This document shows positions 40-33,239 of a stretch of DNA of 40,565 nucleotides, one piece after another. The stretch is taken from assembly GCA_017860135.1 (NCBI GenBank), contig JAFNAG010000016.1, forward strand, positions 1-40,565, written 5' to 3'. A program made the position numbers and the translations under genes. Within the stretch, counting starts at the first letter, position 1. Each line of letters begins with the position of its first letter. The stretch comes from Acidobacteriota bacterium (GTDB lineage Bacteria; Acidobacteriota; UBA6911). The notes below the pieces were generated by a model. That model had not been told where the DNA came from. It did no database searches and worked only from the letters and a program-made list of their open reading frames with translations.

Positions 40-1026
40 TCAGGCCAGGTAGATGGGAACCGGGGTGAAGCAAATGATCAGGATCAGCATCGCCGCAACG
101 CCGATCACTCTGCGGCCGGTCCCGACGGCCTCATCGTCGTACAGTGTAGGTGGATGGTAGAAGCGTGCCCGCAGGCCGACGATCATAATGAGCACCGCAA
201 ACAGCAGGTAGGAGGGAATCGGCCAGCCTGCGAAACTCACCAGCACGAGAGCGACGGTCGCACCGATGGAAACCTTCTTCTGCAGTTCGCGGCCGAGCAT
301 CGCATAGGCGATGTGCCCGCCGTCCAGCTGCCAGATCGGAAAGAGATTCAGGCTGGTCGCCAGCAGCCCGAACCACGCGGCCATCGCGATCGGGTGCGCG
401 ATCATGTCCTGTGTCCCGGAAGAATAGCCCAGCACCGCGGCGCCGATCCAGCGAAACAGAAGCGGCTCTCCGAACGCGATCTCCCCGGCGATGCTGCCCT
501 TCGGAATCAGAGTGGAATAGGCGATGCCGACAATCAGGGCAGGCACGACGAATACAAAGCCGGCCAGAGGTCCGGCAATACCGACGTCGAACAGCGCCCT
601 CTTGCTTTGAAACGGCGATCTGATTCGGATGAATGCTCCCATGGTTCCCGCGATCGAAATCGGCAGGGGCAGGAAATAGGGCGGGGTGCAGCGGATTCCG
701 TAGTGGCGGCACGCAAGGAAATGCCCCATTTCATGGGCCAGCAGAATCATGACGATCGTGAATGAAAACGAAACCCCCTGCAGCAGCAGACTCGGATGCG
801 ATGCGACCAGGATCAGCATGCGAATCAGGCCGACATCCCCGGCGACATAGAAGAGACCGGCGTATGTCGTGCTCAAAATGGTGGCAAGCAGAAGAAAAGA
901 GGGAAGCAGCCATTCCCGCCATTGGAACGGAGCCGTTCCGGGGGGTGGATATTCATGCACCGGAGGCCGCGCGACCCACGTTTGCCCAAGGCGCGCGGTC
1001 GGATCGGTGGGGAAATCACTACTCAC
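40..1026 (-). CDS. M50-family (site-2 type) membrane metalloprotease
   Basis: Polytopic intramembrane zinc protease of 328 aa. The zinc-binding HEMGH lies at residues 98-102 and the third-ligand motif LDGGH at 234-238, preceded by the usual LNLFP stretch. Hydrophobic segments are visible around 40-60, 82-97, 147-175, 190-230, 253-278 and 308-326. It has no PDZ domain, unlike RseP. Family members cut membrane-embedded substrates such as anti-sigma factors; the substrate here cannot be inferred. It lies 65 bp downstream of the HU gene on the same strand, so cotranscription is possible. The proline-rich N-terminal 35 residues look cytosolic. Family call is firm, role open. Confidence 0.9.
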   Translation of the reverse strand: MSSDFPTDPTARLGQTWVARPPVHEYPPPGTAPFQWREWLLPSFLLLATILSTTYAGLFYVAGDVGLIRMLILVASHPSLLLQGVSFSFTIVMILLAHEMGHFLACRHYGIRCTPPYFLPLPISIAGTMGAFIRIRSPFQSKRALFDVGIAGPLAGFVFVVPALIVGIAYSTLIPKGSIAGEIAFGEPLLFRWIGAAVLGYSSGTQDMIAHPIAMAAWFGLLATSLNLFPIWQLDGGHIAYAMLGRELQKKVSIGATVALVLVSFAGWPIPSYLLFAVLIMIVGLRARFYHPPTLYDDEAVGTGRRVIGVAAMLILIICFTPVPIYLA

Positions 1027-1091
1027 AAAACTCCGAACTTTCTTGTAATTCCTACTGGACAGGAAGGATGCCTGCAGCGCTTTCCGCAGGA

Positions 1092-1367
1092 TCAGAAGAT
1101 CTTGTCCGCACGTATTTCCTTGCCGGGCTTGAAGCGGATCGTCTTGCCCGGAGGAATCGCGACCTCTTCCCCGGTGCGGGGATTCCGGCCGACGCCGCTC
1201 TTGCGCGGTTTCACGATGAATACCCCGAATCCGCGCAATTCGATCCTTTCACCACGCTTCAGTGCGCTCTTGAGTGAATTGAAAACGGATTCGACCGCAA
1301 TCTCCGCTTTTACCTTCGTGATATTCAACTGATCGGCAACACGGTTCACGATGTCCTGTTTTATCAC
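1092..1367 (-). CDS. HU/IHF-family DNA-binding protein
   Basis: Nucleoid protein of 91 aa, the normal HU length, which bends DNA as a dimer. The C-terminal half carries the beta-arm signature GRNPRTGE with the intercalating proline, followed by the basic KTIRFKPGK segment. The start is GTG at 1367, placed by a GGAGG about 7 nt upstream; the overlapping upstream ATG is out of frame. A sigma70-like promoter lies just upstream (1395-1423). HU and IHF subunits cannot be separated safely from sequence alone, so no symbol is given. Confidence 0.95.
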   Translation of the reverse strand: MIKQDIVNRVADQLNITKVKAEIAVESVFNSLKSALKRGERIELRGFGVFIVKPRKSGVGRNPRTGEEVAIPPGKTIRFKPGKEIRADKIF

Positions 1368-1394
1368 GCTGATCCTCCATAAGTTCGTGCAAAC

Positions 1395-1423
1395 ATATTA
1401 TTTGTGGCTCGGAAGCCTGTCAA
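1395..1423 (-). promoter_or_regulatory. Sigma70-like promoter of the HU gene
   Basis: On the minus strand TTGACA (1418-1423) is followed after exactly 17 nt by TAATAT (1395-1400). It lies about 28 nt upstream of the GTG start, leaving a short leader that contains the GGAGG ribosome site. The -35 is perfect; the -10 matches 4 of 6 consensus bases. Confidence 0.65.
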
Positions 1424-1956
1424 GCCAATTCTATTTCCCGCATTACACCGTCGACCCTCGTTGCCAGACTCCCGCCTTGCCCGATTCCCTCAGAATCCAA
1501 TATCGGCGTGATGCCGGATGATTGGATCGCTGCAATTGCGCGCCGCGATTAGGATAATCCTCCCTGTTGCCCGCAGCAGGTCTCGTCACGGCAGGATTTC
1601 CTCCGGCGTCAGTCCCTGATCTCACCTGGCGATGGCGCTCCCGTTCCAGTGCGGGTCTATGCCGGCGAAGGCATCACACGAGTGGTCTTCCTGAAAGTGG
1701 ATTCCGGGTGCTGCACCTCCTATGCCGATCGGAAAGGCAAGTGTCAAGCGCTAAGCAACATCGAGGTAATATGGCACGAATACGGGGCTGCTCCGCCGCA
1801 ATCCGCTGATGTTTCCCGATGCCGTCGGCTGCGGCGAAGGAGACCCGGCCCTTGCAATCAGATTCAGGCATCCCGTATCATTCGAGATGCGGAATCAGGC
1901 GGTGAACATTGGATTCTTAACTGCGCACCTGTGCCACGCGACCTCGGAAAAGTCCC
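1424..1956. other. Gene-free spacer between the HU promoter and lptE
   Basis: About 530 bp between divergent genes. Several short ORFs overlap here in different frames (about 60-100 codons), none with a recognisable family, ribosome site or consistent codon bias. The frame around 1620-1800 reads somewhat protein-like (APVPVRVYAGEG...), which could be a decayed gene, but I cannot name it. The lptE promoter should lie here; I could not pick a convincing one. Confidence 0.4.
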
Positions 1957-10301: not shown

Positions 10302-12395
10302 ATGGATACTGCCGAACTGCTTGTGGAACTTGGTACCGAGGAGGTCCCCGCCTCCATGCTCGAAGATGCCACCCGGCAATTCGCCCGGCTGCTGATCGAC
10401 GGGCTGCACGCGGAGCGTCTGTCCGCGGAAACCGGAGAGGTCTGGTGCACTCCCCGTCGCATGATCGTTGCCCTGAAATCGGTTCCGAAGCGGCAGGAGG
10501 ACCTCATGGAAACCATCCTGGGGCCGCCCCGAAAGGTCTCCTTTGACGCGGACGGAAAACCGACCCGTGCTGCAATTGCCTTTGCGGAGAAAAACGGCGT
10601 TCCGCTCGCACGGATTCGGATCGTCGACACTCCCAAGGGAGAATACCTGACCGCCCGGCGAAAACAGAAAGGGGAGAGCACCGCGCGTGTCCTGCAGCGG
10701 GTCATCCCCGCCGCCATCGGGGGAATCCAGTTTCCGAAGTCCATGGTGTGGACCGCGGACAAGTTCCGTTTTGCCCGCCCGCTGCGATGGATCGTGGCTC
10801 TGTTTGCGGGGAAGGTTGTGAGATTCACCGTCGCCGGCGTCCCCTCCTCACGCTTCACCCGGGGCCACCGGTTTACGGGAAAGTCCCGGATCCCGGTGAG
10901 CGGCGCCGAGGCACTCCGCGAGTCTCTGCGGGAGAACGGCGTCATCGTGGACCCCGCGCAGCGTGCCCGGATGATTCGCACGGGCCTCGATCAGGCCGCT
11001 GCGGAGGCCGGCGGCAGGCTGCTGCCGGACGAAGACCTTCTGGCCACCGTGGTCAACCTCAATGAGTGCCCCTCCGTGGTGCGGGGCGCCTTCGACAACC
11101 GCTTCCTGGATCTGCCCGGGGAAATCCTGATCACCGTGATGCGGGAGCACCAGAAATACTTTTCGGTCGTGGACCCGGATGGGCGCCTGCTCCCGTATTT
11201 CCTCGCCGTCATCAACACCAGCGGGGATTCTGGCGGCAAGATCCGCGGCGGGCACGAGCGCGTGCTGCGTGCCCGCTTCGCGGACGCCGCCTTCTTCTGG
11301 AATACCGATCGCAAGATCCCGCTGGGAGAGCGGGAATCATCGCTGAAGGGTGTGTTGTTCCAGCAGAGACTCGGATCCTATGCGGACAAAACCCGCCGCA
11401 TTCTCGCCCTGCTGCCCCATTTGACCGGCCCGGCGGGCTGCGGCTCGGCACCTACCGGGGTGGAAACCGCCGCGCACCTGATGAAATGCGATCTCGTGAC
11501 CGAAATGGTCAAGGAATTCACGGATCTGCAGGGTATTGTCGGCGGACTGTACGCTAGGGCGGAAGGATACCCGGATACAGTGTGGCGCGCGATCTACGAG
11601 CAGTACCAGCCGAAGAGCACCGCATCCCCATCCCCTTCCACCCTGCCGGGCGCAGTGCTTTCGCTTGCCGACCGCCTGGACACGGTGTGCGGATGCTTCT
11701 CGGTGGGACTGATTCCAAAGGGGTCGAAGGATCCGTTCGCCGTCCGCAGGCAGGGAAACGGTTTTCTCAAGATCCTCCTCGACCACCATATCCGGCTGTC
11801 ACTGGACCGCCTGATCGCCGCGGGCCTCCAGGCGCTCGACGCCGATTCGCAGGAAACTGCCGCGGAAATCAAGAGGTTTTTCGAGGGGAGGCTGCGATTC
11901 CTGTTTGAGGAAGCGGGATTCTCCTACGACTGCATCAACGCCGCGCTGGCTGCGGGATACGATGACCCCGCCGATGCCGCCGAACGCGTGCGCGCGCTGC
12001 AGGAGCTGCGCCAGGAACCCGATTTCCTGGCATTGGCATCGAGTTTCAAGCGCGTCATGAACATCCTGGCACAGTCGGAAGCATCGGAGGATCTGCCGCA
12101 ACCGGATCTCATGAGCGATGCCGCCGAGATCGCACTCTTTCAGCGCTATCTTGAAATCGTCCCGGAAGTGGAAGCAGCGCGCAACAACCGCCAATACTCT
12201 GCAGCCCTGCGCCTGATGGCCTCGTTGCGGGGAGCCGTCGATGAATTTTTCGAACAGGTGCTGGTCATGGCCGAAGATCCCGCGCTGCGCAGGAACCGCC
12301 TGGCACTTCTCCGCGGGCTTGCCCGCCAGTTTCTCAGCGTCGCGGACATCTCCACTACCTTTGTCCCTTGGCCCGCAGATTTGAACCCGTTTTAG
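10302..12395 (+). CDS. glyS: Glycyl-tRNA synthetase beta subunit
   Basis: tRNA-binding beta subunit of the tetrameric enzyme, 697 aa, the normal length. The N-terminus LLVELGTEEVPASML, the segment FPKSMVW near residue 146, the HD-like core (LVTEMVKEFTDLQGIVGG, then YARAEGYPDTV) and the C-terminal anticodon-binding-type helices (FEQVLVMAEDPALRRNRLALL) are all present. The stop codon itself lies inside a REP-like repeat (cgttttag...), so the gene end is fused to the repeat discussed below. Confidence 0.97.
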   Translation: MDTAELLVELGTEEVPASMLEDATRQFARLLIDGLHAERLSAETGEVWCTPRRMIVALKSVPKRQEDLMETILGPPRKVSFDADGKPTRAAIAFAEKNGVPLARIRIVDTPKGEYLTARRKQKGESTARVLQRVIPAAIGGIQFPKSMVWTADKFRFARPLRWIVALFAGKVVRFTVAGVPSSRFTRGHRFTGKSRIPVSGAEALRESLRENGVIVDPAQRARMIRTGLDQAAAEAGGRLLPDEDLLATVVNLNECPSVVRGAFDNRFLDLPGEILITVMREHQKYFSVVDPDGRLLPYFLAVINTSGDSGGKIRGGHERVLRARFADAAFFWNTDRKIPLGERESSLKGVLFQQRLGSYADKTRRILALLPHLTGPAGCGSAPTGVETAAHLMKCDLVTEMVKEFTDLQGIVGGLYARAEGYPDTVWRAIYEQYQPKSTASPSPSTLPGAVLSLADRLDTVCGCFSVGLIPKGSKDPFAVRRQGNGFLKILLDHHIRLSLDRLIAAGLQALDADSQETAAEIKRFFEGRLRFLFEEAGFSYDCINAALAAGYDDPADAAERVRALQELRQEPDFLALASSFKRVMNILAQSEASEDLPQPDLMSDAAEIALFQRYLEIVPEVEAARNNRQYSAALRLMASLRGAVDEFFEQVLVMAEDPALRRNRLALLRGLARQFLSVADISTTFVPWPADLNPF

Positions 12396-12686
12396 AGCGC
12401 GCGGGCTGAAGAGGGTGTCCAACGGTTGCACCACGGCAAGCTGAGGCGCAAAGCGCCGGAAGTGAATAGCACCGCGCGTCAGCGCGGGGTTAGGGCGCGG
12501 CCATAACCGAGGCCCGAAGGGCCGGCACATACTGCATATTTTCAGGAATTTAGTGCCGCACCTACGGCGCTCAACCACGCTCCATCTCTATCCCGGCCTG
12601 ACGGCCGGGCCTGTTTATTGCCGGCCCTTCGGGCCTCGTCGGACCGTGAAACAACCGTTGGACACCCTCCGAAGCCCATGCTCACT
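12388..12686. repeat. REP-like 36-nt palindrome split by an insertion
   Basis: Left part 12388-12411 (ending ggctGAAG) and right part 12671-12686 (starting GAAGccc) rejoin, dropping one GAAG, to a 36-mer that matches the intact copy at 33204-33239 at 33 of 36 positions. The reconstructed stem is roughly gcgcgggc/gcccatgc around a TGAA loop. The glyS stop codon lies in its left end. Confidence 0.75.
12412..12670. mobile_element. MITE-like foldback element with 17-bp inverted ends
   Basis: A 259-bp element without coding capacity. Its ends are perfect 17-bp inverted repeats: agggtgtccaacggttg (12412-12428) and its complement (12652-12668), plus two unpaired bases at the right. A further five-base match follows after three mismatches. 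Inside are five GC hairpins: ggcgc/gcgcc (12445-12457), ccgcgc/gcgcgg (12472-12487), ggccc/gggcc (12511-12523), cccggcc/ggccggg (12592-12609) and a second ggccc/gggcc (12622-12634). The arms at 12509-12527 and 12619-12637 are also complementary to each other. GAAG flanks both sides as a probable target duplication. No transposase is nearby. Confidence 0.75.
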
Positions 12687-12806
12687 TTCCGGGCGTGGCC
12701 GGAACCACGCTCTGCTTTTCCCGACTCCCGGCTTCTGACTCCGCCGGACCGAATTTGACAACAGAGTCCGGAGACTGGCCGCAGCAAAACGCTCCGCCGG
12801 CCTGCC

Positions 12807-15581
<2,775 letters not shown>

Positions 15582-33143: not shown

Positions 33144-33239
33144 GCGCGGGCGAAAGCCCGCGCGCTTCAGTTCTCCTTACGTCTCCATTCTCATGGGTTC
33201 ACTCGTTTTAAAGCGCACGGGCTGAAGCCCGTGCTCACT
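33144..33239. repeat. REPIN-like pair of REP palindromes
   Basis: Copy one, gcgcgggc-gaaa-gcccgcgc (33144-33163), and copy two, gcacgggc-tgaa-gcccgtgc (33215-33234, with wider homology 33204-33239), stand in opposite orientation 51 bp apart between the convergent ssb and DUF58 genes. Copy two is the intact relative of the palindrome split at 12388-12686. Confidence 0.65.

Follow-up and report, generated by a model that had tools for sequence, protein, structure and literature searches.

The window analysed here, a stretch of 40,565 bp from an Acidobacteriota bacterium, contains a 257-bp non-coding element (Table 1) that is very probably a non-autonomous MITE inserted in trans at the dyad centre of a REP palindrome, its interior being an inverted pair of Acido-Lenti-1 (RF01687) sequences. 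The first-pass annotation had proposed a mobile element caught in a REP, and this proposal is supported by the presence in the genome of about 40 related loci and about 121 empty REPs, by independent flanking sequences and by a direct duplication of the target. In the mechanism proposed here, a transposase acting in trans, most likely of the DDE type, would recognise the ends of the MITE and cut at its TIRs. Staggered cuts would be made at the dyad of palindromes able to form hairpins, in this case the REP AGCGCGCGGGCTNNAGCCCGCGCTCAC, and the central 6 bp would be duplicated. The interior of the MITE is a REPIN-like inverted Acido-Lenti-1 module, which is also carried by several otherwise different repeat families of the lineage. 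DDE chemistry is suggested by the combination of TIRs and a target duplication.

The TIRs are perfect over 17 bp, as had been annotated. The right end of the element is at 12668 and not at 12670, which makes the element 2 bases shorter than the 259 bp given previously. The arrangement of GC-rich hairpins in two facing halves was described correctly, although six local hairpins are counted rather than five, three per half, with five of them strong and one weaker. As single-stranded DNA, the region from 12390 to 12690 has a predicted fold that is 9.5 standard deviations below dinucleotide shuffles. A scan for reading frames of at least 90 aa gives only frames that enter from the neighbouring sequence, in agreement with the description of the element as lacking an ORF.

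Table 1. Coordinates of the element, its parts, its target and the adjacent genes in the window
Feature	Position	Strand	Description
glyS beta	10302..12395		Stop codon at 12393-12395
Left arm of interrupted REP (K arm, AAAGCGCGCGGGCTgAAG type)	12394..12411	+	Ends in duplicated CTGAAG (12406-12411); overlaps glyS beta stop
Probable MITE, non-coding, 257 bp	12412..12668	.	Bounded by 17-bp TIRs; related to about 40 loci of the genome
Left terminal inverted repeat, AGGGTGTCCAACGGTTG	12412..12428	+	17 bp
Acido-Lenti-1 (RF01687), left copy	12444..12489	-	Hairpins at about 12445-12457 and 12472-12487; cmscan score 39.9 bits (E 1.2e-7), above the gathering score
Third hairpin of left half	12511..12523	.	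GGCCC-GAA-GGGCC
Third hairpin of right half, weak	12555..12568	.	GCCG-CACCTA-CGGC
Acido-Lenti-1 (RF01687), right copy	12591..12636	+	Hairpins at about 12592-12609 and 12623-12635; cmscan score 37.2 bits (E 6.3e-7), slightly above the gathering score
Right terminal inverted repeat	12652..12668	-	17 bp
Right arm of interrupted REP (S arm, CCCRYGCTCAC type)	12669..12686	+	Starts with duplicated CCGAAG (12669-12674)
PEP-utilising PPDK-like enzyme	12807..15581	-	
Intact (empty) REP of the same family	33204..33239	+	

The genome that contains the window is a MAG of 6.05 Mb in 715 contigs and is 92.8% complete. Approximately 40 loci in it match the element, most of the longer ones from end to end, which excludes the possibility that the host has no other copy. 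Past the REP arms, the flanks of the copies are unrelated to one another apart from short dispersed repeats, and the element is present, as a MITE should be, in multiple copies at unrelated sites. Many of the copies are located at contig ends, as expected since repeats break assemblies. Pairwise identity among the 18 full-length copies is 70-92% (median 82%), which indicates that the family is old and its activity not recent; mobility probably belongs to the past rather than the present. Copies at L020 (G000:C198) and L059/L128 (G000:C165) are apparently broken by further inserts inside the element. Relatives possess the core of the element but lack its ends.

The outer palindrome has the properties of a REP in that it falls within the range of 20-40 bp, has a high copy number and forms many inverted doublets about 72 nt apart. 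About 121 intact copies occur in the genome within 3 mismatches of the consensus, compared with none for a reversed control pattern, and these intact REPs account for only about 0.05% of the genome. When the sequences on either side of the element in the window are joined at GAAG, they match the intact REP of the window at 33 of 36 bases, as the earlier reconstruction of an empty site had indicated. About 20 of the 24 elements with both ends readable sit between two arms of this REP, whereas for about 4 a location in a REP is not clear. The REP is asymmetric, with AAAGCGC (K) at one end and GCTCAC (S) at the other. One K and one S arm are found in 14 of the 16 full-length copies with scorable arms, and the other two have S..S arms. 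Relative to the element interior, the order of the arms, as judged visually from the flanking sequences, is K..S in about 9 copies and S..K in about 5. Since K and S arms are paired in both orientations, they derive from one pre-existing REP that was entered either way. It is extremely improbable that no insertion into REPs took place and that REP arms, TIRs and core instead form a fixed composite repeat, multiplied as a unit or through recombination. The two S..S copies would fit such a composite, as would L015 and L016, which have about 40 bp of right flank in common, including REP-linked sequence, but the orientation of the arms is independent of the interior and roughly 121 REPs lack the element.

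Insertion of the MITE is associated with a directly repeated target sequence, and the first-pass annotation had predicted a duplication of 3-4 bp. A duplication is indeed present, although comparison of the copies suggests that it covers the central 6 bp. In the window the two duplicated centres are identical at 5 of 6 positions. Across the MITE copies the 6-bp centre is repeated directly rather than inverted, in many cases imperfectly, and when the central dinucleotides of the two sides are compared, 33 of 50 positions match in direct orientation but only 11 of 50 in inverted orientation. The simplest reading of these sequences would be a duplication of the central 6 bp, CTNNAG, with direct repeats on both sides. 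Since the target site is palindromic, however, the length is ambiguous (2, 4 or 6 bp), and a duplication of 4 bp (TNNA, with a TIR starting with G) or of 2 bp, with longer TIRs, could also give this pattern. An estimated 24,000 CTNNAG sites are expected in 6 Mb. REPs make up a tiny fraction of these, and recognition must therefore extend beyond the 6-bp motif.

What is recognised may be the structure of a hairpin rather than its sequence. A similarly built element in the relative G148, with the TIR AGTCTGTGTGAGAAC and one Acido-Lenti-1 motif, has exact 6-bp duplications (CTTCGG, CCTACG, CTGACG and CTTCAG), and six copies inside another palindrome, GTCCCTACGGGAC, have a 7-bp duplication. These duplications fit an insertion placed symmetrically at the palindrome dyad. 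A rule in which duplication length tracks the hairpin loop, with 6 bp in even and 7 bp in odd palindromes, fits the REP sites of G148, but several of the exact 6-bp cases there are at weakly palindromic sites. Because of these weakly palindromic cases, recognition of hairpin structure is offered here as a hypothesis.

The seven members of the genus or family that were compared have glyS, with broken synteny after it, and downstream of glyS they have no REP, no TIR and no PPDK neighbour. The lineage thus does not carry the element and its surroundings as a fixed block. The first-pass annotation had considered that relatives might share it as one fixed block, which is not the case in these seven; none of them offers an empty allele at the same locus for a direct test.

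The transposase that the first-pass annotation called unseen is still unseen, as none with these ends was found in the genome or its relatives. Together with the age of the copies, the ambiguous length of the duplication, its imperfect copies, the two S..S copies and the approximately 4 copies outside a clear REP, this counts against a MITE in a REP. No transposase gene is present beside the TIR copies read in this MAG (about 93% complete, 715 contigs), and a search of seven relatives gave no TIR-bearing autonomous partner. A scan for the TIR in 85,462 species genomes gave five isolated matches, in unrelated organisms. The DDE transposase families PF01609 and PF05598, examined with their flanks, also gave no element bounded by the TIRs of the MITE. 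An IS1182 element of G001, which has the TIR GAGTCCGTCCGAG and a CTAG duplication, loosely resembles the G148 ends, and its TIR is somewhat similar to that of the MITE, a loose match only; this likeness might at most provide a lead. An IS1182-derived MITE was considered and rejected, as PF05598 (the DUF772 domain of the G001 IS1182 transposase) has no match in this genome and the G001 TIR matches only loosely.

Alternatively, the element could be of the REPIN type and be moved as single-stranded DNA by an HUH tyrosine transposase (RAYT or TIRYT), in which case the REP arms would be its own ends. TIR-flanked tyrosine transposases have been described, with a sharply defined Acidobacteria group (PMC3733652), the cargo of the element is an inverted pair of hairpin units, and the Y1 transposases of this genome are one RAYT and one IS200-like gene. 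Neither of these genes, however, has the TIR or the K/S REP beside it, and single-strand insertion does not predict K..S arms in both orientations around a directly duplicated centre, which makes this explanation unlikely. A REPIN moved by RAYT was likewise rejected, the only RAYT found in the genome being flanked by a different REP family, GTGAGGACCGGTCTCC. The earlier suggestion that the element is REPIN-derived is apt for the cargo, in which Acido-Lenti-1 hairpin units form an inverted pair much as in a REPIN, though not with regard to a linked RAYT. The RAYT gene itself, at L121 (G000:C693:600-3000; positions 879-1463, minus strand, 194 aa, NF047646), has the clustered REP GTGAGGACCGGTCTCCAGACC on both sides, and with its own REP clusters it is a classical REPtron.

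The cargo of the MITE consists of two inverted copies of RF01687 that exceed the gathering score of 37 bits. This genome has 81 matches to RF01687, compared with 0 in 14 control genomes. Where neighbouring matches are less than 400 bp apart, 16 of 20 pairs are arranged minus/plus (P ~4e-7 against one in four), and the spacing of pairs in the genome is mostly about 147 or about 205 bp. All 15 pairs at loci of relatives are also minus/plus, 107-154 bp apart, in a non-random sample since these loci were partly retrieved by likeness to this element. Within the phylum, RF01687 is found in 66 of 247 genomes, with the number of matches per genome being "at least" values in several of them.

Acido-Lenti-1 appears in Weinberg et al. 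2010 as a table entry only, where it is rated a probable RNA (PMC2864571), and it could be argued that Acido-Lenti-1 is a functional small RNA and the element an incidentally repeated RNA gene or regulator. That RF01687 is a curated Rfam family with this rating and that the hairpin columns are well conserved among the copies would agree with such a role. A single genome nevertheless has 81 matches, the inverted pairs have fixed spacing and place one copy on each strand, and RF01687 occurs in repeat families with different ends. No compensatory changes in stem pairs are present among 17 aligned copies, which average 87% column identity, so that the MITE family shows, at this low divergence, no sign of selection on an RNA fold. 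A functional small RNA is highly improbable as the explanation of the element. RF01687 in this lineage seems instead to behave as repeat or mobile DNA, largely as one arm of transposon-borne repeats, and no description of Acido-Lenti-1 as mobile DNA was found in the literature searched, which was poor in subscription journals. The element resembles the Acido-Lenti-1 RNA family in containing two matches over the gathering score, and differs from it in that the motif is one arm of a high-copy inverted-repeat DNA element rather than a stand-alone gene.

At L123 (172-383), L125 and L126 (G000 contigs C26, C308 and C413), the TIR frame of the MITE encloses another cargo, made up of two inverted units that resemble CTGGGAGCGCGGGCGTCTCGCCCGC. 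Of these three, L123 is inserted in a K/S REP, L125 is next to a single REP arm and L126 has no clear REP arm. A second RF01687-bearing repeat family (L093, L094 and L100-L103, on G000 contigs C224, C57, C431, C316, C139 and C682) holds the 205-bp pairs. Its ends resemble CTGCGATTCAGACAGTGG, with a differing TIR, about 290-325 bp lie between the ends, and two copies have duplications of 9-10 bp (L100, GGAGAAACCG; L102, AAACTGTCA). In the relatives G012, G007 and G016, RF01687 lies inside other palindromic frames. Since the TIR frame occurs with another cargo and RF01687 in other frames, frame and cargo are separable. The frames with Acido-Lenti-1 include AGGGTGTCC in REPs (about 6-bp duplication), CTGCGATTCAGACAGTGG (about 10-bp) and AGTCTGTG in G148. 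A tentative and rather doubtful extension is that Acido-Lenti-1 is a widespread hairpin DNA module repeatedly acquired by unrelated transposon frames. If so, the module might be useful for mobility, through host-factor binding, transcription insulation or cruciform extrusion, or be itself mobile. Loci L178-L186 of G024 contain Acido-Lenti-1 inverted pairs of about 63 bits that have flanks in common and no clear terminal inverted repeat.

As a REP-targeted MITE, the element belongs among the variants of kinds already known. Insertion of ISs into REPs is established for five IS families (PMC1525189), and insertions of ISRm22 are at the axis of the palindrome and are flanked by direct repeats (PMC1525189). 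The element shares REP-specific insertion with IS1397, ISKpn1, IS621, ISPsy8, ISPpu9 and ISRm22 (Tobes and Pareja 2006, PMC1525189); these encode a transposase, whereas here the element is 257 bp long and non-coding and no matching IS was found. IS1272, of the IS1182 family, also targets inverted repeats, which are potential stem-loops (Wan et al. 2017, PMC5678879). It takes the place of the stem-loop and makes no duplication, while here the REP arms stay and the centre is duplicated; the model of Wan et al. 2017 includes a hypothetical pathway whose duplication would be confined to the loop (PMC5678879). REPINs and RAYTs (PMC3116915, PMC3733652) similarly involve high-copy inverted pairs of hairpin units, but here 17-bp TIRs surround the pair, the target is directly duplicated and there is no linked RAYT. 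The bacterial MITEs NEMIS, RUP, ERIC and MITEAba12, compared through their descriptions in the literature rather than by sequence, are likewise short, TIR-bounded, non-coding and multi-copy, and differ from the present MITE in its REP-centre specificity and Acido-Lenti-1 cargo.

Of greater interest is that the Acido-Lenti-1 "RNA" is here an inverted-repeat module of repetitive elements, which gives an orphan Rfam RNA a concrete explanation in this lineage. Since Acido-Lenti-1 is in this lineage largely an arm of transposon-borne DNA, caution is needed with its annotation as an sRNA and with functional guesses derived from it (e.g., PMC13298647). The approximately 20 filled and 120 empty REP sites of this one genome provide a natural set for study of how a transposase chooses hairpin centres.

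The host genes on either side of the element are convergent. The stop codon of glyS beta is at the edge of the REP arm, where the sequence is TTTTAG compared with TTTTAA in the intact REP at 33204, and from this overlap the REP appears to abut or supply the stop codon.
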